This document shows positions 10,794-52,622 of a stretch of 64,000 bases of DNA, one piece after another. A program made the position numbers and the translations under genes. The notes below the pieces were generated by a model. It had not been told where the DNA came from and did not search any database. It worked only from the letters and a program-made list of their open reading frames with translations. The first letter of the stretch is position 1; each line of letters opens with the position of its first letter. The stretch is from contig CAUJCX010000035.1 in the NCBI GenBank assembly GCA_963169235.1, positions 248,001-312,000 on the forward strand, written 5' to 3'. The stretch is from Actinomycetota bacterium (GTDB lineage: Bacteria; Actinomycetota; Thermoleophilia; Miltoncostaeales; Miltoncostaeaceae).

Positions 10794-11060
10794 ATGGAGA
10801 TGGAACCCCTTCCCGACCTGAGCGGGCTTGCGGACGCTGAACTGAAGCGCATGATCGAGGACCTGAAGCAGGCCGAGAGGGACGTGTCGATGCAGCGCCG
10901 GCTGCTGCACGGGCGCATCGACATCCTGCAGCAGGAGGTCGTCCGGCGGCTGTCCGGCAAGGACGACAGCGAGCTGTCCGTCGTGGACGTCGATGCCCTG
11001 GCGCGCATTCTGGCCGGGCGCGTGGGCGATTCCATGCACTTGGACGGCGACGAGAAGTAG
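10794..11060 (+). CDS. RsiG-like anti-sigma factor candidate (c-di-GMP-binding helix)
   Basis: 88 residues, mostly helical. Residues 28-43 match the RsiG c-di-GMP motif E-x3-S-x2-R-x3-Q-x3-D as E28, S32, R35, H39 (Q replaced by His) and D43. In Streptomyces, RsiG bound to c-di-GMP sequesters the sigma factor WhiG; in Rubrobacter a one-motif RsiG does this as a homodimer (established knowledge). This short protein has a single motif, so it fits the Rubrobacter type. AAGGAG sits 6 bases before the ATG. No WhiG/FliA gene is in the window, but two WhiG-type promoters are (19530, 25779). Assignment rests on motif and length only. Confidence 0.7.
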   Translation: MEMEPLPDLSGLADAELKRMIEDLKQAERDVSMQRRLLHGRIDILQQEVVRRLSGKDDSELSVVDVDALARILAGRVGDSMHLDGDEK

Positions 11061-17896: not shown

Positions 17897-19477
17897 TTAC
17901 GGGCCCTTCTCGGAGGTATCGGCGGCCGCGAGCGGCAGCCTCGCCGTGAAGTGCGCGCCGCGGTCCGTCGCGGGGTCGAGCACCAGCGTGCCGCCGTGCG
18001 CCTCCACGATGGCGCGGCTGATCGCCAGGCCCAGCCCGGAGCCCGGGAGGCCGCGGCTGCCGTCGCCGCGCTGGAACGCCCCGAATACGCGCTCGCGCTC
18101 GGCGGCGGGGATGCCCGGCCCGGAGTCGGCCACGCGGATCTCCACGTCGTGGTCACCCTGGCGCACCGTCACGTCGACGCGATCATCGGCGCAGCAGTAG
18201 GCGATGGCGTTACCCAGGAGGTTGTCGAGCACCTGGCCGACGCGCTGACCGTCCACCACGGCGTACACCGGCGCGTCGGGGAGGTCGGCGCTCACATGGA
18301 TGCCCCGGGCGCGCGCGGCCGGAACCGCGCTGGCCACCGCATGCCGCGCCAGGGCCGCGACGTCCTCGTGGTGGGGCACGAGGGCCAGCCCACCCGCCCG
18401 GGCCTGGGCCACCGTCAGCAGGTCGCCCACCATGCGATGGAGGCGCAGCGCGTTGCGGTGCGCCACGTCCACAGCGCCCCGCTGGGCGTGGCTCAGGTCG
18501 CCCGCCTCGCCGGCGGTCAGCAGCTCCAGGTAGCCCACGACGGACGTCAGCGGCGTGCGCAGCTCGTGCGATACGAGGGCCAGGAAGTCGTCGCGCGCCT
18601 GCAGCGCCCGGCGCTCGGCGGTGACGTCGCGATGCACGAACACCCGCCCCAGCCGACCTCCCGCCGCGTCGGTGACGGGGGCTGTGTACCGCACCACGGT
18701 GCGCGCCGGGGTGCCGTGGCGGTACTCCCACACCGACGTCTCGTCCACCGCGCTCGCCAGGCGGGTGAGCTCGGCGACGTACGCGTCAGCATCCTCGAGC
18801 GCCGCGATCTGGTGGGGCGACACGTGCGCGGGGTGCAGCGGGCCGAGCACCGTGCGGGACTCCCGGTAGCCGGGGTTGCACGCGATGTCCCGGCCGGCGT
18901 CGTCCACCAGCACGATGGCGTCGGGCGCGGCGTCCAGCACGGCCTGGGCGATGCCTGCCTGCCGGTGCGCCTCGTGCAGGGCCCGCACGCGTACCAATGC
19001 GGCGCCGGCCTGCCAGGCGAGCACCAGGAGGTCGTCCGCGACGCCGGGGGCCAGGGGACGCGGGACGTCGTGCAGGCGCAGGTTGCCCGTGGGCACGCTC
19101 GCGGCACGCAGTGGCGCCACCAGGACGCCTGGCACGTCGGCGTCCCACGCGAGGTCGTCGGCCACCAGGGCGCCGTCGGGACGGTCGACGAGCACGACCT
19201 CGGCCCCGGACGCGCACGCCAGGTCCACCGCGGCGTCCGAGACCGCGGCCAGGATCGCGTCCTCCGAGTCGGCCACGATCAGCGCCTGCGACGCCCTCAG
19301 CATGCATCCGCGGCGGCGTTCGGCCACCTCGCGCTCGCGCAGCATGCGCCGCAACGCGGCGTTCTGCGCCTCGAGCAGGGCGTTGGCGCCGGCCAGTCCC
19401 GTGGCGATGCGGGCCGCGTGGGGCGTGGCGGACGGGTGGGAGGCGACGTCGGTGGCGGGCATGGACGCCGTAGCCAT
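17897..19477 (-). CDS. Soluble GAF/PAS sensor histidine kinase (orphan)
   Basis: 526 residues with no membrane segment. A coiled N-terminus (30-60) leads into a GAF-like region (about 60-170), a PAS domain (about 175-290), a HisKA dimerisation domain with phospho-acceptor H304 in LVSHELRTPL, and a C-terminal HATPase_c domain with the N, G1 (DSGPGIP) and G2 (GSGLGLA) boxes. It autophosphorylates and should pass phosphate to a response regulator, but none is encoded nearby, so it is an orphan. The ATG at 19477 has GGGAGG about 14 bases upstream; an in-frame ATG five codons later is possible. Confidence 0.9.
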   Translation of the reverse strand: MATASMPATDVASHPSATPHAARIATGLAGANALLEAQNAALRRMLREREVAERRRGCMLRASQALIVADSEDAILAAVSDAAVDLACASGAEVVLVDRPDGALVADDLAWDADVPGVLVAPLRAASVPTGNLRLHDVPRPLAPGVADDLLVLAWQAGAALVRVRALHEAHRQAGIAQAVLDAAPDAIVLVDDAGRDIACNPGYRESRTVLGPLHPAHVSPHQIAALEDADAYVAELTRLASAVDETSVWEYRHGTPARTVVRYTAPVTDAAGGRLGRVFVHRDVTAERRALQARDDFLALVSHELRTPLTSVVGYLELLTAGEAGDLSHAQRGAVDVAHRNALRLHRMVGDLLTVAQARAGGLALVPHHEDVAALARHAVASAVPAARARGIHVSADLPDAPVYAVVDGQRVGQVLDNLLGNAIAYCCADDRVDVTVRQGDHDVEIRVADSGPGIPAAERERVFGAFQRGDGSRGLPGSGLGLAISRAIVEAHGGTLVLDPATDRGAHFTARLPLAAADTSEKGP

Positions 19478-19529
19478 CGGCGTTTCGGCCCCTCCCTTGA
19501 GCGCGGTATCCTGGTCCGCGAACTGGGGC

Positions 19530-19557
19530 TAAAGGTTTGGGCCCTTTCTGCCGATTG
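19530..19557 (+). promoter_or_regulatory. Sigma-28/WhiG-type promoter for the PilZ gene
   Basis: TAAA at 19530-19533, a 16-base spacer starting GGTTT and ending TTCT, then GCCGATTG at 19550-19557. The FliA/SigD/WhiG consensus is TAAA(GTTT)-N15-GCCGATAA, so both boxes match very well. A transcript would begin near 19563, leaving about 90 bases before the PilZ start codon. Confidence 0.75.
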
Positions 19558-19654
19558 GGCGTCCACACTGACGCCCGGCGCACCCCGCGCCGACGCACGC
19601 GTGAACAACCCCGCCCGCACAGCACGCGGGTCGGCGATTCCGGAGGACCGGTAC

Positions 19655-20059
19655 GTGAACGAGACATCCCAGCACGCCGCCGAGCAGGACGACGACCGCC
19701 GTCGCAGCCCCCGCTTGAGCGTCGCTCTTCCCGTCCGCATCGTTGCGGACGGTGAGCCGATCGCGGTGGAGACGGTCGACATCAGCGAGGACGGCGTTCT
19801 GCTGAGCGGTGCCGACTTCCCGCCCGGCGATCACGTGCGTCTGGAGATCGAGCTCGCCGAGGCCGGCTGGCGCAGTCTCGACGCCGAGGTGGTGCGCCGC
19901 GAGGAGGCCGAGAACGGCGACGACCGCCTGGCCGCCCGCTTCGCCCGCATCGCGACCGAGGGTGGGCGCAGCGCCATCCAGGCCTTCTTCGAGGCCCGCC
20001 TCGGCCCCGTCGCCGACGCCGTCGAGCCGCGTCGCTCGATGCCGGTGCACAACGCCTGA
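19655..20059 (+). CDS. PilZ-domain c-di-GMP-binding protein
   Basis: 134 residues. The start is fixed by GGAGG 8 bases before GTG 19655, although the frame stays open far upstream. PilZ hallmarks are intact: RRSPR (R16-x3-R20) and D42-x-S44-x2-G47 in VDISEDG, the two motifs that wrap intercalated c-di-GMP. A single PilZ domain fills the protein. Such proteins transmit c-di-GMP levels to motility, pili or polysaccharide machines. It is preceded by a sigma-28/WhiG-type promoter and followed by an 11-bp hairpin, so it is probably monocistronic. Confidence 0.88.
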   Translation: MNETSQHAAEQDDDRRRSPRLSVALPVRIVADGEPIAVETVDISEDGVLLSGADFPPGDHVRLEIELAEAGWRSLDAEVVRREEAENGDDRLAARFARIATEGGRSAIQAFFEARLGPVADAVEPRRSMPVHNA

Positions 20060-20069
20060 GACCGATGTC

Positions 20070-20105
20070 CGCCGGTCGCCGTCCCGTCCGCGGAGGCGAC
20101 CGGCG
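20070..20105 (+). terminator. Hairpin after the PilZ gene
   Basis: A perfect 11-bp inverted repeat, CGCCGGTCGCC at 20070-20080 and GGCGACCGGCG at 20095-20105, with a 14-base loop, starts 10 bases after the PilZ stop. No T-run follows, as is usual in very GC-rich actinobacteria. Confidence 0.65.
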
Positions 20106-20215
20106 TCGTAGGCCGTGACGCCTCCCGCGGCATCACGTCCCTCCGCGTGGCGTCCTCACGAGTTACGGCAGGGGTGCCGGCGGGTGCGTCCGCGCGACGC
20201 GGCCCCGCGGCGGGG

Positions 20216-20392
20216 TCAGCGGGTGACCACCTCGCCGACGCGCGCCTGAGCGGCGGCCAGGCGCTCCCACGCGCGCTCCTCGGCCCGGCGGTGCTCCTCG
20301 GCGGATGCGTACAGATGCGCCCCGCGGGACACGGAGAGGTAGTCGGACTGCGCCCGTGCGAGCTCGCTGACCGGATCCGTCTCAACCGTCAT
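20216..20392 (-). CDS. Small charged helical protein
   Basis: 58 residues, not recognised. The ATG at 20392 has an excellent AGGAGG 6 bases upstream, which argues for a real gene. The product is helical and Glu/Ala/Arg-rich with no membrane segment. It lies between the PilZ gene (convergent) and the secreted protein gene at 20473. Function unknown. Confidence 0.6.
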   Translation of the reverse strand: MTVETDPVSELARAQSDYLSVSRGAHLYASAEEHRRAEERAWERLAAAQARVGEVVTR

Positions 20393-20472
20393 CGCGTTCC
20401 TCCTGCGACGTGCCCGCCGGATGGCAGGGTTGGGTGGATATCGGCATCGGCCGTCACGAATCGAGCTTCGCG

Positions 20473-20970
20473 TCAGCGGCGGGCGAGGGCCCGCTTGGTC
20501 TCGGGCCGGGAGGGTGCGACGCGGAAGCCGGTGCACGCCACGTGGGCGCTTGTGCGGCCGTCGACGAGGCGGGTGGAGGCCGTCAGGCAGACGCGGTACG
20601 CGCCCGGGGCCAGGTCGTCGGGGCGGAACTGCAGCCGTACCGCGCCCTCGGTCCAGCGGGCCCGCTCGCCGATGCCCTGACACGCGTCAGCGCTGACACC
20701 ACCGTCCGCCGCGGACTTCGTCACGAGGCCCGCGTCGCTGCCCGTCGTGGCGGTGGCGGACGCGTTCCCGGCGCGGTGCCAACGGGCCGTCACGGCTACG
20801 CGGCAGCCACCGCTGGCGGGCGGCGCCATCACCTCGGCGGCGACGTCCAGCGTGCCGCCGGCGTACTGCGCGCTCATGCCGCTGATGGGAGCGCCCTGGG
20901 CGCTTCCCGCCGCCGCGGCCGCGAGGGCCGCGACGGCGAGGGATGCACGGAGGATGTGCGGCGCGCTCAT
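20473..20970 (-). CDS. Secreted hypothetical protein
   Basis: 165 residues with a clear signal peptide: Ala-rich hydrophobic core and cleavage near AQG-AP at about residue 27. The mature part has two or three cysteines (GGCRV, DACQG, VACTG, CLTAS) that could form disulfides and a beta-rich pattern, perhaps an Ig-like or jelly-roll fold. No family recognised. The ribosome binding site before ATG 20970 (AAGGAC) is very close, so the start is moderately certain. Confidence 0.65.
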   Translation of the reverse strand: MSAPHILRASLAVAALAAAAAGSAQGAPISGMSAQYAGGTLDVAAEVMAPPASGGCRVAVTARWHRAGNASATATTGSDAGLVTKSAADGGVSADACQGIGERARWTEGAVRLQFRPDDLAPGAYRVCLTASTRLVDGRTSAHVACTGFRVAPSRPETKRALARR

Positions 20971-21084
20971 GTCCTTCCCATCGCCCCAGACGGGGCCTGT
21001 CGTCACCGCGGGTAGAGGAACTACCATGCCCCCGCGGCGGCTAGGCTTCGCGTCGCCGTCGTCACACCGCCCAAGGAGCGTGCA

Positions 21085-21900
21085 TTGGCCACCGTCACCC
21101 CGCCCTCGACCGAATCCACCGGCCGTCTGCGGCTGTGCGCCGGCTGGCCGCTGGCGCGCCGTGCGGGCATGGGCACCATCCGCTTCGGCGGCGCGGCCAT
21201 GACGCGTCGCATGCTGGACGCTGCGGGTGTGGGGCAGAGCTCCCGGGTGGTCGACCTCGCGCCGGGGCGTGGCGCCACGGGCGCGCTGCTCAACGGCGTC
21301 AACCTGCACTCATACACCGCGGTGTGCGGCACGCCCGCCGTGGCCGCCGCGGTGCGCGGGCGCATCGACGGCCTCGAGCGCCGCACCGTCATCGGCACGC
21401 CGGACGCCACGGGCCTTCCCGACGGGGAGGCGTCCGCCGTCATCGCCGAGACGCTCCTCACCGGCCTGTCCGACCCGGGCAAGGAAGCGGTGCTGCGCGA
21501 GACCGCGCGCATCCTGCGTCCCGGAGGGTGCGCCGCGTTCCACGAGCTGGCCATCGTGGACGACCCCTGGGCGCGGGGAGCCCTGCCCCTGCGCGACCTG
21601 CTGGCGGCTCCCGCGCGGGGTGGCCTGCGGCCGCTGAACGTGCGGGGGTGGCGCGACCTGGTCGCCCCGGCGGGGCTGGAGGTTGTGGGCGCCAGCCTGG
21701 GGACGTTCACGCCGCCCGACCTGGCGGAGGCCCTGCGCGATGCGACGGGACGCGACAAGCTCCTCATCGCCGCGCGCCTCATGCTGCCGGGGCGGGTGGC
21801 GCCCCGCTGGCGCGCGGTGGCCTACGAGCTCGACGCGCACGCCGCCGAGCTCGCGAGCATCGTGCTGGTCGTGCGCCGGCCCGTGCTCGCCCTCGCCTGA
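21085..21900 (+). CDS. SAM-dependent methyltransferase, class I
   Basis: 271 residues from TTG 21085, chosen because AAGGAG lies 6 bases before it. Residues about 50-60 (VVDLAPGRGATG) form the SAM-binding motif I, with the later LPDGEASAVIAE and ILRPGG segments as motifs II and III. The substrate cannot be told; overall it resembles small-molecule methyltransferases of the UbiE/COQ5 type. Convergent with the sigma factor gene at 21907, with only 6 bases between stops. Confidence 0.78.
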   Translation: MATVTPPSTESTGRLRLCAGWPLARRAGMGTIRFGGAAMTRRMLDAAGVGQSSRVVDLAPGRGATGALLNGVNLHSYTAVCGTPAVAAAVRGRIDGLERRTVIGTPDATGLPDGEASAVIAETLLTGLSDPGKEAVLRETARILRPGGCAAFHELAIVDDPWARGALPLRDLLAAPARGGLRPLNVRGWRDLVAPAGLEVVGASLGTFTPPDLAEALRDATGRDKLLIAARLMLPGRVAPRWRAVAYELDAHAAELASIVLVVRRPVLALA

Positions 21901-21906
21901 CCGCCG

Positions 21907-22494
21907 TCAGGCGGCCAGGACGTCCCGCACCGACTCCTGCAGGCGGCGCCGCGCCCGGTGGGTGCGCACGCGGGTCGCGCCCGGCGTCAACTGCATCACC
22001 TGGGCGATCTCGGCCGGGGACTGCCCGGCCAGGTCGCGGACGGCCACCTCGCGGTAGGTGTCCTCGAGCGCCGCGACGGCACCCATCAGCGCCTTGCCCA
22101 CCTCGGCCGCGACGGTGGCCCCGAACGGGTCGGCCAGGTCGTCGGCGACGGGCGGCAGCTCGTCCATGGGGACGGGCGCCTTGGCCCGCCGGGCACCGGC
22201 ACGGTAGGCCTCGTTACGGGCGATGGTGCTGAGCCAGGCGGCCAGGTCGTCACCGTGGAAGCGCGGCAGGCTGCGGAACGCCCGCACCCATGCCTCCTGC
22301 GTCGCGTCCTGGGCGTCGTGGTGATCACGCAGGATCGCCCGGCACACGCGGTACATGCGGGCGTCGTAGCGGTCCACGATCTCCCGCGAGGCGGAGGGGT
22401 CGCCGTCCACGGCGCGCGCCACCAGGCGGGCGTCGCGGCTGGGCGCGAGGGGCGTGGCGGAGGTGTTCTCGGCGGTGATCGTGGAGGGCGTCAT
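21907..22494 (-). CDS. ECF-type RNA polymerase sigma factor
   Basis: 195 residues. Region 2 is seen in DAQDATQEAWVRAFRSL and the following tryptophan-containing helix, and region 4 in LEDTYREVAVRDLAG and IAQVMQLTPGATRVRTHRAR near the C-terminus. ECF sigma factors redirect RNA polymerase to stress or envelope regulons, usually held by an anti-sigma factor. GGAG lies 7 bases before ATG 22494 and is partly covered by an inverted repeat (22504-22529). The anti-sigma gene at 22616 is divergent, so either sigma factor of this locus could be its partner. Confidence 0.88.
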   Translation of the reverse strand: MTPSTITAENTSATPLAPSRDARLVARAVDGDPSASREIVDRYDARMYRVCRAILRDHHDAQDATQEAWVRAFRSLPRFHGDDLAAWLSTIARNEAYRAGARRAKAPVPMDELPPVADDLADPFGATVAAEVGKALMGAVAALEDTYREVAVRDLAGQSPAEIAQVMQLTPGATRVRTHRARRRLQESVRDVLAA

Positions 22495-22503
22495 CTCGGG
22501 GCT

Positions 22504-22529
22504 CCAGGTGTCGTTGTCCGTACACCTGG
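22504..22529 (-). promoter_or_regulatory. Perfect inverted repeat in the leader of the ECF sigma gene
   Basis: CCAGGTGT at 22504-22511 and ACACCTGG at 22522-22529, spacer 10 bases, located 10 bases before the sigma start codon. On the sigma mRNA the proximal arm overlaps the GG of the GGAG ribosome binding site. It could be a protein operator or a translation-controlling hairpin. Confidence 0.5.
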
Positions 22530-22615
22530 TCCGACGCGCACACCGCGCCGACAATTCCTCGTCGCCGGGGGAATAAAGTGGGGGCGTCGTTCGTCTCACT
22601 GCATTGGACGGTCGG

Positions 22616-22873
22616 ATGTCGTCGGATCCGCATTCATGTAGACGTCTCGAGGCGCTGCTCGACCGGGAGCTCGACGGCGAGCTGACCTCCGAGCAGCGCG
22701 ACTTCATGTCCGCGCACCTCGCCTCGTGCCCCGCGTGCCGCGAGCGGCGCTCGTTCCACGTCGGCGTGCGCACGGCCATCGATACGGCGCTGCAGGACGA
22801 GTCGATGCCCAGCGGCATGGCCGCGCGCATGCTGCACCGTCTCGACGAGCTGCAGGCGGAGGACGAGGCGTGA
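22616..22873 (+). CDS. Zinc-binding anti-sigma factor (ZAS/zf-HC2 domain)
   Basis: 85 residues from ATG 22616 (a TTG at 22604 is possible). C8 and the H34-x3-C38-x2-C41 cluster (HLASCPAC) form the zinc-binding anti-sigma signature known from RsrA and related factors; in RsrA-type proteins oxidation of these cysteines frees the sigma factor. There is no membrane segment, so it is cytoplasmic. The stop overlaps the start of the next gene, a sigma factor (GTGA), which makes that sigma its likely partner. Confidence 0.85.
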   Translation: MSSDPHSCRRLEALLDRELDGELTSEQRDFMSAHLASCPACRERRSFHVGVRTAIDTALQDESMPSGMAARMLHRLDELQAEDEA

Positions 22874-23847
22874 CGGCCCGCAGCACCGTGCGCCGCCGGG
22901 CGTTCGAATCGTTCTTCGTGGAAGAGATGCCGGTGCTGTACCGCGCCGCCCGGCGCCGCGTGCGCAACGACGCGGACGCGGAGGACCTGGTGCAGGAGAC
23001 GATGCTGCGCGCATACCGTTCTTTCGACGCGGACGCGCCTCCGGACAACCCCGCCGCGTGGTGTCACACCATCCTCACCAACCTGATCACCGATCGGGCG
23101 CGGGCCGCGCAGCGCACGCCGGACACGATGTCGGTCGACGACGAGGGCGCAGGTTTGTACGACCGGCTCGAGGCGGGACGCGAGACCGGCATGTTCAGCG
23201 ACCCCCAGCGGCTGGTGGAGCGGTGGAGCAACCAGACCGAGGTGCGGGCGGCGATGGGGACGCTGCCGGAGTGGGCCCGCGACGTGCTGGTGCTGTCGCA
23301 CGTGCGGGGGCTCCGCTACCGCGAGATCGCGAAGGCCTTGGGCGTGCCCGAGGGCACGGTGATGAGCCGGCTGGCCCGCGCCCGGCGCGCCCTCGAGCGC
23401 GCGCTGGCCGATCGCGCGGGTTTGCCCGACCGGGCTCGGGCCCGCCTGGAGGCCCCGGCCCCCGAGTCGGCGCCGCGCCTCGACAAGATGAAGCAGTCGT
23501 GGGGCACCGTGCCGCCGGCGTTCGCCGCGCTGGCCGCCGACCCGGCGCTCTTGGACGCGGCCTCGCGCATGATGCAGAGCGTGGTCGCCGACGGCGCCCT
23601 CTCAGCCGCGGTGAAACGCGCGCTGCTGGCGTCGCTGGCGGGCAGCCCCCCCGACCCGGCCGACCGTCCCCTGACCGCCCTGGCCGGGTTCGTGGCCGCG
23701 GCCTCCGCCGACCCGGCGGGCCTCAGCCGCAGCGACTACGAGCTGCTGTACGCGGAGGGGTGGAGCGAGCCACAGGTCATGGAGGCGCTGCACCTGTCGG
23801 CGTTCGCGCCGTACATGAGCACCATGAACGCGGCGCTCGGGGGCTGA
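22870..23847 (+). CDS. ECF-type sigma factor with C-terminal AhpD/CMD-like extension
   Basis: 325 residues, far longer than a normal ECF sigma (about 190). Region 2 (EDLVQETMLRAYRSF) and region 4 (IAKALGVPEGTVMSRLARAR) occupy about residues 10-190. The last about 115 residues resemble the AhpD-like/carboxymuconolactone decarboxylase fold: a start like SWGTVPPAFAALAADPALLD and an end like LLYAEGWSEPQVMEALHLSA then MNAALG. The peroxidase CxxC segment is missing, so any such domain is non-catalytic. GTG 22870 overlaps the anti-sigma stop. ECF41/ECF56 sigmas carry other C-terminal domains (SnoaL-like) that tune activity; a sensing or regulatory role here is inference. Confidence 0.82.
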   Translation: MTARSTVRRRAFESFFVEEMPVLYRAARRRVRNDADAEDLVQETMLRAYRSFDADAPPDNPAAWCHTILTNLITDRARAAQRTPDTMSVDDEGAGLYDRLEAGRETGMFSDPQRLVERWSNQTEVRAAMGTLPEWARDVLVLSHVRGLRYREIAKALGVPEGTVMSRLARARRALERALADRAGLPDRARARLEAPAPESAPRLDKMKQSWGTVPPAFAALAADPALLDAASRMMQSVVADGALSAAVKRALLASLAGSPPDPADRPLTALAGFVAAASADPAGLSRSDYELLYAEGWSEPQVMEALHLSAFAPYMSTMNAALGG

Positions 23848-23854
23848 CGGCGGC

Positions 23855-25192
23855 GTGGCGACGCCGGTCCCCGAGGTCGAGGCCTGCGTCGTGGGAGGGG
23901 GCCTCGGCGCGCTGATGGCCCACACGGCGTTGCGCTTCCGCGGCCTCGGCTGCGAGGACGTCGCCGTCGTGGGCGCCCACGACGACCCGTTCGCGACGTA
24001 CCGCCGGCACGCGTGGGGCGTCGGCCAGCGCGTGACGTACGCCGACCCACTGGGGCACTTCCTGCCGGCCGACTGGCCCGGCCCCGCCGTGCTCGACGTG
24101 GTCGCCCGGCCGGGGATGGCGTCGCTGCGCCGATTGGCGGGCGGAGGGCCGGCGGCGGGCGTGGCCGACACGGTGGCGCAGGCGCGGGCGGTCGCCCGCC
24201 GCCTGGGCTACGTCCGCAGCTTCACCCGCCGCGTCGTGGCCGACGTGGTGCGCGCCACGGGGCCTGCGGGCCCGCACTTCGGGGTGTACGCCGACGACGG
24301 GGCCCTGGTGCTGCGCGCGCGCCACGTGCTTCTGGCCCTCGGCCACGGTCCGCCCGTGTTCCCCCCGGTGCTCGACGCCGCCCGCGGCCATCCGCTGATG
24401 CGCGACCGGGTGGTGCACGCGTACGAGCCGAAGCGGTACGTACGTGGCGGGCGGTACCTGGTGATCGGCGCCGGCCTCGCGGCCGTGAACGAGTGGGTCA
24501 ACGCCCTGGCCGCGGGCGCGGAGTGCATCGCGGTGCGCCGTCCCGACGTGGAGGGGGAGGATCTGGGGGCGCCCCAGTGCCTGTTCGAGGCGCTCGGCAT
24601 CGACGCGTACTCCGGGCTCACGCACGACCAGCGCCTGGGCATCCTGGGCCGCGTGCTGCGGGGTGCGACGGCGTCGGGCGACGCATGGCGCACGGCCGTC
24701 ATCCGGGGCCACCACGACGGCAGGTTCCGGGAGGTGGTGGGGGAGGTCACGTCCGTCGCGCCGGGCCCCAGCGGGCTGGTGGCCGACTGCGCCCTGGCGG
24801 CAGGAGGGGACACCGGGCCGCTGCACGTCACCGGGGTCACGGTGGCCACCGGCTTCGACGCCGACCCCCGGGCCGTGCCGCTGCTGGCGCGCCTGGTGCT
24901 GCGGCACGCGCCGCCGATGACGGGGGGGCGGCTGGCGCTGCCGGGCAACTGCGGCCTGGTGCCGGTCGACCAGCCCGCGTCCCGGCTGTGCGTCGCGGGC
25001 TTCCACGCCGCGCTGGCCGTGCCCCACGCCGACACGCTGGCCGGCCTCAAGTACGTGGCGCGCCGCTTCGCCGACGACGTGGTGCGCGCCCGCGGCGGGC
25101 GGGGACGCGGCGTCGGCTCGCGGGCGCGCATGCACGCGGCGTGCGTCGGCTCCGCCCTGGGCGATCTGCGTCGCACGCCGGTGACGGCCTGA
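23855..25192 (+). CDS. FAD/NAD(P)-binding oxidoreductase
   Basis: 445 residues. The N-terminal CVVGGGLGALMA is a dinucleotide-binding GxGxxG-type loop, and a second one, YLVIGAGLAAVNEW, occurs near residue 205, as in two-dinucleotide flavin monooxygenase-like or thioredoxin-reductase-like proteins. The segment VATGFDAD near residue 330 is the typical ATG-containing FAD motif. The electron partner and substrate are unknown. The GTG start is 7 bases after the sigma-factor stop, so it is probably in the anti-sigma–sigma operon and could be part of its redox response. Confidence 0.78.
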   Translation: MATPVPEVEACVVGGGLGALMAHTALRFRGLGCEDVAVVGAHDDPFATYRRHAWGVGQRVTYADPLGHFLPADWPGPAVLDVVARPGMASLRRLAGGGPAAGVADTVAQARAVARRLGYVRSFTRRVVADVVRATGPAGPHFGVYADDGALVLRARHVLLALGHGPPVFPPVLDAARGHPLMRDRVVHAYEPKRYVRGGRYLVIGAGLAAVNEWVNALAAGAECIAVRRPDVEGEDLGAPQCLFEALGIDAYSGLTHDQRLGILGRVLRGATASGDAWRTAVIRGHHDGRFREVVGEVTSVAPGPSGLVADCALAAGGDTGPLHVTGVTVATGFDADPRAVPLLARLVLRHAPPMTGGRLALPGNCGLVPVDQPASRLCVAGFHAALAVPHADTLAGLKYVARRFADDVVRARGGRGRGVGSRARMHAACVGSALGDLRRTPVTA

Positions 25193-25193
25193 C

Positions 25194-25781
25194 ATGTGCC
25201 CGACGCTCCTGGGACGGTTGCACACCCGCCTGGCCATGGTCGCGCTGCCCGCCGTGGCGGCTGCCATCGCGTTCTGGATGGGCGCCGGGGCACACTGGCT
25301 CGCGCTGGCGGGGATGTGGCTCGTGCTGGGAGCCGCCGTCGATGCGGGCCTGTACCGGCCGCTGGTGCGCTGGCAACCCGGCGTCCTGACGGTGGGGATG
25401 GGGCTGGCCGAATGGATCCTGGTCGCGGGGGTGGCCCACGCCGTGCACCTGGGCATCGGCGTCGTGGCGCTGAGCGTCGCCTACTGGAGCGGCTGGCTGG
25501 TGGGCCACGCCGTGCGCCTCGCGGTGCTGCCGGTGGTGTTCGTCACGCGCCAGGAGGAGGGGGGAGAGGTGGGGCGGCCCCGCTGGTGGATCCCCGCCGG
25601 GCAGCACGTGCGTCCCCCCGCGCCCGACCGCGGCACCCCGCTGCCACCGCGCCTGTCCGGCCTGTGGACACATCCCACCAGTGACGGGCCCGCGTTGCCC
25701 CCGCCGTCGCATGTCGGGCCCATCCCCGCCGAGTTCCTGGCCGCCCTCGACGCCCTGCGTGAGCGTCGCCAGGAGGGGTAA
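25194..25781 (+). CDS. Four-helix membrane protein with Pro-rich cytoplasmic tail
   Basis: 195 residues, family not recognised. Four hydrophobic segments lie in the first about 115 residues, followed by a Pro/Arg-rich soluble tail. The ATG is one base after the oxidoreductase stop, so the two are probably cotranscribed. The TAA stop also forms part of the -35-like box of the downstream WhiG-type promoter. Confidence 0.65.
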   Translation: MCPTLLGRLHTRLAMVALPAVAAAIAFWMGAGAHWLALAGMWLVLGAAVDAGLYRPLVRWQPGVLTVGMGLAEWILVAGVAHAVHLGIGVVALSVAYWSGWLVGHAVRLAVLPVVFVTRQEEGGEVGRPRWWIPAGQHVRPPAPDRGTPLPPRLSGLWTHPTSDGPALPPPSHVGPIPAEFLAALDALRERRQEG

Positions 25782-25806
25782 CGGAAATCGGCGGTTCTGC
25801 CGATAG
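25779..25806 (+). promoter_or_regulatory. Sigma-28/WhiG-type promoter for the YjfB-like gene
   Basis: TAAC at 25779-25782, a 16-base spacer, then GCCGATAG at 25799-25806. Spacing, the GG after the first box, the TTCT before the second and the GCCGAT core equal those of the promoter at 19530. The TAA is also the stop codon of the upstream gene. Transcription would start about 1-3 bases before the start codon or just upstream of it, so the leader is very short. Confidence 0.65.
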
Positions 25807-25813
25807 GGGGAGC

Positions 25814-25984
25814 ATGAACACCATCACCACATCCTCCAACCCGGCCAGCGAGATGGTTCAGGTGCTGATGCTGCGCAAGCAGATGGACGCGGCCAAGACC
25901 AACGCGGAGCAGTTGCTCAAGGCGATGCCGCCGCCCCCGCCCGCACCGGCGCCGCACGACGGCCAGATCGACACGTACGCCTGA
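25814..25984 (+). CDS. YjfB-like putative motility protein (very small)
   Basis: 56 residues. The middle, QVLMLRKQMDAAKTNAEQLL, resembles the YjfB_motility family (hydrophobic residues, K-x-MD-x-A, then QLL), followed by a Pro-rich tail and an acidic/Tyr end. In Bacillus subtilis yjfB belongs to the SigD (sigma-28) motility regulon. Here the gene directly follows a sigma-28-type promoter, which independently supports the call. GGGGGAG just before the ATG can serve as ribosome binding site. No enzymatic role is known for the family. Family membership is judged by eye. Confidence 0.6.
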   Translation: MNTITTSSNPASEMVQVLMLRKQMDAAKTNAEQLLKAMPPPPPAPAPHDGQIDTYA

Positions 25985-51542: not shown

Positions 51543-52622
51543 ATGTCCTCGCAGTTGGGTGTGATGAAGAACGATGGTGAGCTGCGCGCGCTGATCGTGC
51601 GTGGCCAGGAGCTCGGTTTCCTCGGCCTCGAGGAAGTGGCGGAGGTGCTCGACGGCTTGGGCCTCGACGCCGAGGCCGCCGAGGAGGTGTACCAGCAGCT
51701 GGAGGAAGCCGGCATCGACCTGCTCGAGCAGGCCGACGCCAACGCGCGCGCCGCAGAGCACGCCGACGAGTCCGAGCGGCCCCGCCGCAACGGCGCCACC
51801 GTCGAGCAGACGACCGACGCGCTGCAGCTGTTCCTCAAGGACATCGGCCGCGTGCCGCTCTTGACCGCCGCCGACGAGGTGCGCCTCGCGAAGCGCATCG
51901 AGGCCGGCGACCAGGAGGCCAAGCGCCAGATGGTCGAGGCCAACCTGCGCCTCGTGGTGTCGATCGCGAAGGGCTACCGGGGCCGCGGGCTGCCGTTCCT
52001 CGACCTCATCCAGGAGGGGACGCTCGGCCTCGTGCGCGCCGTCGAGAAGTTCGACTGGCGCCGCGGCTTCAAGTTCTCGACGTACGCGACGTGGTGGATC
52101 CGCCAGGCGGTCACCCGCGCCCTGGCCGACAAGGGCCGCACCATCCGCATCCCGGTGCACGTGGTGGAGAAACTCAACCAGATCAGCCGCGCCGAGCGCG
52201 TGCTCATCGGCCAGCTGGGGCGCGAGCCCACGGTCGCCGAGATCGGCGAGGCCGCGGGCCTGCCGCCGGACGAGGTGGAGGAGATCCTCCGCAGCGCCCA
52301 GCCCACCGTGTCGCTCGAGAAGCCGGTCGGTGAAGAGGAGGAGTCCGAGCTGGGCCGCTTCCTCGCCGACGACAGCACCATCGCTCCCGAGGTGTCGGCC
52401 GAGGTCTCGCTGCGCGAGCAGGCCCTGCGCGAGCTGCTCGACCAGCTGAGCTACCGCGAGCGCCGCGTGCTCGAGCTGCGCTACGGGCTCAGCGGCGAGA
52501 AGCCCCGCACGCTCGACGAGCTGGGGCGCATGTTCAACGTCACGCGCGAACGCATCCGTCAGGTCGAGAGCCAGTCGCTGCAGAAGCTGGCCTCGCTGCC
52601 CGACAGCTCCCGCCTGGGCTGA
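51543..52622 (+). CDS. sigA: Primary RNA polymerase sigma factor (RpoD/SigA)
   Basis: 359 residues. Regions 1.2 ([15 protein letters not shown]), 2 ([33 protein letters not shown]), 3 ([19 protein letters not shown]) and 4 ([19 protein letters not shown]) are complete, with the C-terminal [14 protein letters not shown] typical of sigma-A. An N-terminal helical region 1.1 is present. The start is ATG 51543 with GGAGG close by. This is the housekeeping sigma factor; a strong sigma-70 promoter precedes it. Confidence 0.96.

Follow-up and report, generated by a model that had tools for sequence, protein, structure and literature searches.

A WhiG-type sigma factor, predicted to be held by RsiG and c-di-GMP, appears to switch on chemotaxis, flagellar and signalling genes in a flagellated Thermoleophilia bacterium

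The antagonist of the flagellar sigma factor FliA/SigD is FlgM, which is coupled to hook export. As of 2021, no sigma/anti-sigma complex other than RsiG-WhiG was known to be a target of c-di-GMP (PMC8325347). A survey of flagella in actinobacteria, published in 2023, found no flagellar genes in Rubrobacteria, and WhiG and RsiG go unmentioned in its main text (PMC10746217). Flagellar control of PilZ proteins has precedent, for instance in the FliA-influenced FlgZ of Pseudomonas (PMC3913639). In this study, we analysed a 64-kb stretch of DNA (the window; contig 35, positions 248001-312000) from the metagenome-assembled genome of a flagellated, uncultured Thermoleophilia bacterium (G000; 2.94 Mb, 65 contigs, 96% complete), whose nearest relative in the comparison set is the sister genome G001. 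Here, WhiG, which is predicted to be held by c-di-GMP, appears to switch on genes for chemotaxis, the flagellum and signalling; a second sigma factor and a predicted c-di-GMP receptor are among their products. Such an arrangement extends the RsiG-WhiG switch, whose roles known to date are in sporulation and in the control of pili. We consider it probable that the sites in the window are promoters of a single WhiG/FliA-type sigma factor and that RsiG and c-di-GMP gate the WhiG regulon.

This reading presupposes a WhiG/FliA homologue in the genome, and a single WhiG gene is present on contig 8. Its product scores 351.8 bits in a profile search with NF004935 (cut-off 343) and matches the WhiG of Streptomyces venezuelae with an E value of 4e-82; with 281 bits it is also the sole gene above the cut-off of TIGR02479, the other sigma-70 matches falling below. 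The gene that passes RpoD_Cterm and adjoins a DnaG-like primase gene (named by eye) is taken as the housekeeping sigma factor. Contig 55 carries a large flagellar and chemotaxis cluster, many genes of which were named by eye from the sequence, and further flagellar genes lie on contigs 28 and 51. Within the 64-kb window, a single tRNA and no riboswitch were found. Between the PilZ and YjfB-like genes, at positions 21907-23847, lie two genes for ECF-like sigma factors and one for a small zinc-finger-like protein (by eye).

An earlier note on this DNA had claimed two sites with FliA/SigD/WhiG-like boxes, beginning at 19530 and 25779, and both were recovered at these positions (Table 1). They are the only matches to TAAA-N16-GCCGATAA with at most two mismatches in the 64 kb, compared with 0.11 matches expected from the shuffled window, and not one of 100 shuffled versions contained two. 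The spacer of both is 16 nt rather than the canonical 15, the ends of both -10 boxes are off-consensus, and TAAA-N15-GCCGATAA has no match with at most two mismatches in the window. When the window was scored with a matrix built from twelve sites that all lie outside it, four window sites came out on top, with scores of 17.7-20.0. Random sequence of the same composition yields 0.06 matches of at least 17.5 per 64 kb, compared with the four seen, and two such matches did not occur in any of 150 random windows.

Table 1. Features of the window; positions count from its first nucleotide.
Feature	Position	Strand	Support
rsiG, candidate single-motif c-di-GMP-dependent anti-sigma, 88 aa	10794..11060	+	PF22802 68.6 bits, cut-off 27
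PAS histidine kinase	17897..19477	-	HisKA, HATPase_c, PAS_4
Predicted WhiG-type promoter TCAA-N15-GCCGATGG, before histidine kinase, divergent to PilZ promoter	19474..19500	-	matrix 20.0, top score in window
Predicted WhiG-type promoter TAAA-N16-GCCGATTG, before PilZ gene	19530..19557	+	matrix 19.1; kept in G001, G006, G015
Stand-alone PilZ-domain protein, candidate c-di-GMP receptor, 134 aa	19655..20059	+	PF07238 53.1 bits, cut-off 22.5
Orphan protein, 58 aa	20216..20392	-	Pfam match absent
Predicted WhiG-type promoter TCGA-N15-GCCGATAT, before 58-aa orphan	20438..20464	-	matrix 17.7
Predicted WhiG-type promoter TAAC-N16-GCCGATAG, before YjfB-like gene; only -10 conserved	25779..25806	+	matrix 18.8
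YjfB-like motility protein, 56 aa	25814..25984	+	PF14070 YjfB_motility 40.8 bits, cut-off 27

The earlier note also placed a PilZ protein with an intact c-di-GMP motif downstream of the first site, and the protein bears this out: the PilZ domain (residues 14-112) is its sole Pfam match, an N-terminal YcgR domain is absent, and both motifs, RRSPR and DISEDG, are intact. In an alignment by eye of 12 orthologues, RxxxR and [DN]xSxxG are each present in all 12. The PilZ site is conserved in four of four genomes of two genera, as TCAA-N16-GCCGATCG in G001 and TCAA-N15-GCCGATTG in G006 and G015, although here, as in our other conservation counts, the compared genomes are related and hence not independent. 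The stretch scanned upstream of PilZ orthologues in the other genera examined holds no site, though most of these genomes have WhiG; in other genera, PilZ lies approximately 7-9 kb from RsiG wherever both share one contig. The divergent kinase-side site has counterparts in G006 (19.1), G015 (17.8) and, weakly, G001 (14.2). Because its -10 box covers the ATG at 19477, the kinase probably starts at the ATG at 19462. G006 has the same kind of kinase gene facing away from PilZ, and a GTG follows the -10 there by 7 nt; at this place, G015 has an ORF comparable in length. The site of the 58-aa orphan recurs before its G001 orthologue as TGAA-N15-GCCGATAC (19.1), with a distance of 45 nt to the ATG in both; proteins similar to the orphan by eye have 61 aa in G001 and 77 aa in G006, where the gene is two genes from PilZ.

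Downstream of the second site, the 56-residue protein that had been likened to YjfB passes the family profile, and it shares 34-44% identity with homologues in G001, G006 and G015. Its promoter is less secure than that of PilZ because only the -10 is conserved. An alternative that we regard as unlikely is that the PilZ site is real and the YjfB site a product of chance, with TAAC supplied by a stop codon and GCCGATAG standing near the start codon for another cause. The TAA of the -35 box does also terminate the preceding ORF (25194-25781), and G001, G006 and G015 have no such -35. However, GCCGAT[AG] lies 7-8 nt 5′ of the homologous ATG in all four genomes, even though the upstream neighbour differs in G006 and G015. 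In addition, the gene is a member of a motility family, and the site has a high matrix score (Table 1). If the site is the promoter, the mRNA of the YjfB-like protein probably has no leader or almost none, because the -10 is so close to the ATG.

The third element of the earlier note, an RsiG-like candidate at 10794, has the residues named there, E28-S32-R35-H39-D43, and falls in the RsiG family. The motif occurs once and agrees with E-x3-S-x2-R-x3-Q-x3-D at four of five positions, with H for Q; among 30 RsiG sequences of Thermoleophilia, all of those matching the motif pattern have H at this position, and those not matching it, several of them from members of the family studied here, mostly have E for the last D. 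The RsiG of Thermoleophilia has been reported as single-motif (PMC8325347). Twin-motif-like forms, with two RsiG matches per frame, occur in two genomes of the class (G038 C2:238754-239173, 174 aa; G048 C78:11606-12052, 231 aa). Among the 61 genomes searched, 42 have RsiG and 43 have WhiG; both are missing from the reduced genus g9, and the two are largely kept and lost together. FlgM had no match in flagellated members of the family, in which the only four matches, all weak, are in g9; RsiG is therefore the only recognised antagonist of WhiG, although the absence of FlgM is weak evidence because FlgM is short and diverse. In Bacillus, flgM lies between yvyF and flgN. Here, flgN abuts a gene that we take to be yvyF-like, with no flgM between them. 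FlgM-like small ORFs of other Thermoleophilia families were rejected as candidates: they lie outside flagellar operons as far as these were read, most are below the cut-off, and several adjoin thiL- or moeA-like genes (named by eye).

Alternatively, these sites could be WhiG promoters with WhiG acting as an ordinary flagellar sigma-28, in which case the partner of RsiG would differ or c-di-GMP would play no gating part. The regulon is indeed a standard late-flagellar set, RsiG-WhiG binding is here a prediction from sequence, and several RsiG proteins of the family carry E where the motif has D. However, RsiG aligns to the solved WhiG-binding RsiG of Rubrobacter radiotolerans (structures 7lq2/7lq3/7lq4; phmmer E 1.4e-7), and this alignment, together with the shared retention and loss of RsiG and WhiG and the failure to detect FlgM in flagellated family members, makes the ordinary sigma-28 quite improbable in our view.

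The regulon extends well beyond the window. Genome-wide counts were taken from pattern searches plus chosen stretches, and two-mismatch matches precede cheA, flhB, cheR, cheY, cheW, flgF/G, flbD-motAB and fliJ, all of them intergenic and close upstream. Flagellar and chemotaxis DNA, approximately 1.7% of the genome, holds 6 of 22 N15 matches (p 1.4e-6) and 4 of 35 N16 matches (p 0.003); these p values are indicative, since the motility share was estimated and the matches were already known when the classes were defined. The enrichment in pili, flagella or chemotaxis that the earlier note anticipated thus holds for flagella and chemotaxis and is thin for pili, with one prepilin-like gene (20.6); pilT was rejected as a target because its site is below the matrix threshold. 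That all window matches arose by chance in a GC-rich genome is scarcely credible, since many two-mismatch matches do lie elsewhere inside coding-like sequence but the shuffles, the independent matrix, the enrichment and the conservation all speak against it. The pattern TCAA-N15-GCCGATAG with two mismatches was rejected for genome searches as too loose (144 matches vs 76 in the reversed control). In G001, a WhiG-type site precedes a flagellin gene. In G000, a gene for a GGDEF protein lies behind a site (18.9), as does the gene for a similar protein in G001 (22.6), so a diguanylate cyclase is likely to belong to the regulon. TAAA-N15-GCCGACAA stands directly before a gene of approximately 120 aa without a Pfam match (G000 C15:63631, score 19.9), and a thiL-like gene (by eye) is divergent from cheW with its WhiG-type site in G000.

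The strongest site is the sole perfect TAAA-N15-GCCGATAA of the genome. It precedes the gene for an RpoD paralogue of 360 aa, whose score is below the RpoD_Cterm cut-off (328 vs 354). In the family, this site scores at least 16 in 10 of 15 WhiG-bearing genomes vs 0 of 13 WhiG-less genomes (Fisher 2.5e-4), although the WhiG-less set is mostly one genus, 2 of the 13 being incomplete genomes or outside it, so that these are not 28 independent cases. In addition, three of the twelve training sequences of the matrix are sites of this gene, a bias towards high scores in G000, G001, G006 and G015. In the titles and abstracts of the literature, we recognised no RpoD paralogue driven by sigma-28. A second RpoD paralogue lies inside the window at 51576-52619 (G000 C35:299576-300619).

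The c-di-GMP-controlled WhiG regulon proposed in the earlier note is therefore supported by the WhiG gene, the enrichment, the PilZ site in four genomes and the co-occurrence of RsiG with WhiG, while its YjfB site stands for the -10 and not for the -35. By homology to the Rubrobacter and Streptomyces complexes, we infer that c-di-GMP gates WhiG here. When c-di-GMP is abundant, a homodimer of RsiG together with c-di-GMP would sequester WhiG, and a fall in c-di-GMP would free it. Freed WhiG would transcribe cheA, cheR, cheY, cheW, flhB, flbD-motAB, fliJ and flgF/G, and also the diguanylate cyclase, the PilZ/histidine-kinase pair, the YjfB-like protein and the RpoD paralogue. When c-di-GMP rises again, the PilZ protein made under WhiG may give a fast response at the protein level, and RsiG would shut down transcription more slowly. 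More tentatively, RsiG may have replaced FlgM in this family, such that c-di-GMP and not hook completion licenses the late flagellar genes and WhiG starts a sigma cascade through the RpoD paralogue; we regard this as possible rather than probable. In that case, motility would probably be among the early outputs of the RsiG-WhiG pair.

This predicted regulon resembles the late flagellar regulon of FliA/SigD in that sigma-28 promoters precede genes for chemotaxis and flagella and a PilZ gene is co-expressed with these, here by prediction; unlike that regulon, it has no detected FlgM, and its PilZ protein has no YcgR N-terminal domain. With the RsiG-WhiG pair of Streptomyces venezuelae it shares the sigma and anti-sigma families, but the Streptomyces RsiG is twin-motif and its system has sporulation targets and no motility (PMC8325347). 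It is closer to the (RsiG)2-(c-di-GMP)2-WhiG switch of Rubrobacter radiotolerans, which has a single-motif RsiG with a WhiG partner, the same promoter consensus and diguanylate cyclase genes in the regulon (PMC8325347). However, the RsiG motif has H here and Q in Rubrobacter, and the Rubrobacter regulon consists of type IV pili and DGC/PDE genes (PMC8325347), whereas the core here consists of chemotaxis and flagellar genes, joined by PilZ, YjfB and the RpoD paralogue. New in the present case are the RpoD-paralogue site, the likely inclusion of a diguanylate cyclase, and the finding that FlgM is not detected in flagellated family members. If an RsiG-WhiG pair governs chemotaxis and the flagellum in basal actinobacteria that are flagellated, along with a predicted c-di-GMP receptor and one more sigma factor, this offers a concrete candidate for an older role of the switch.
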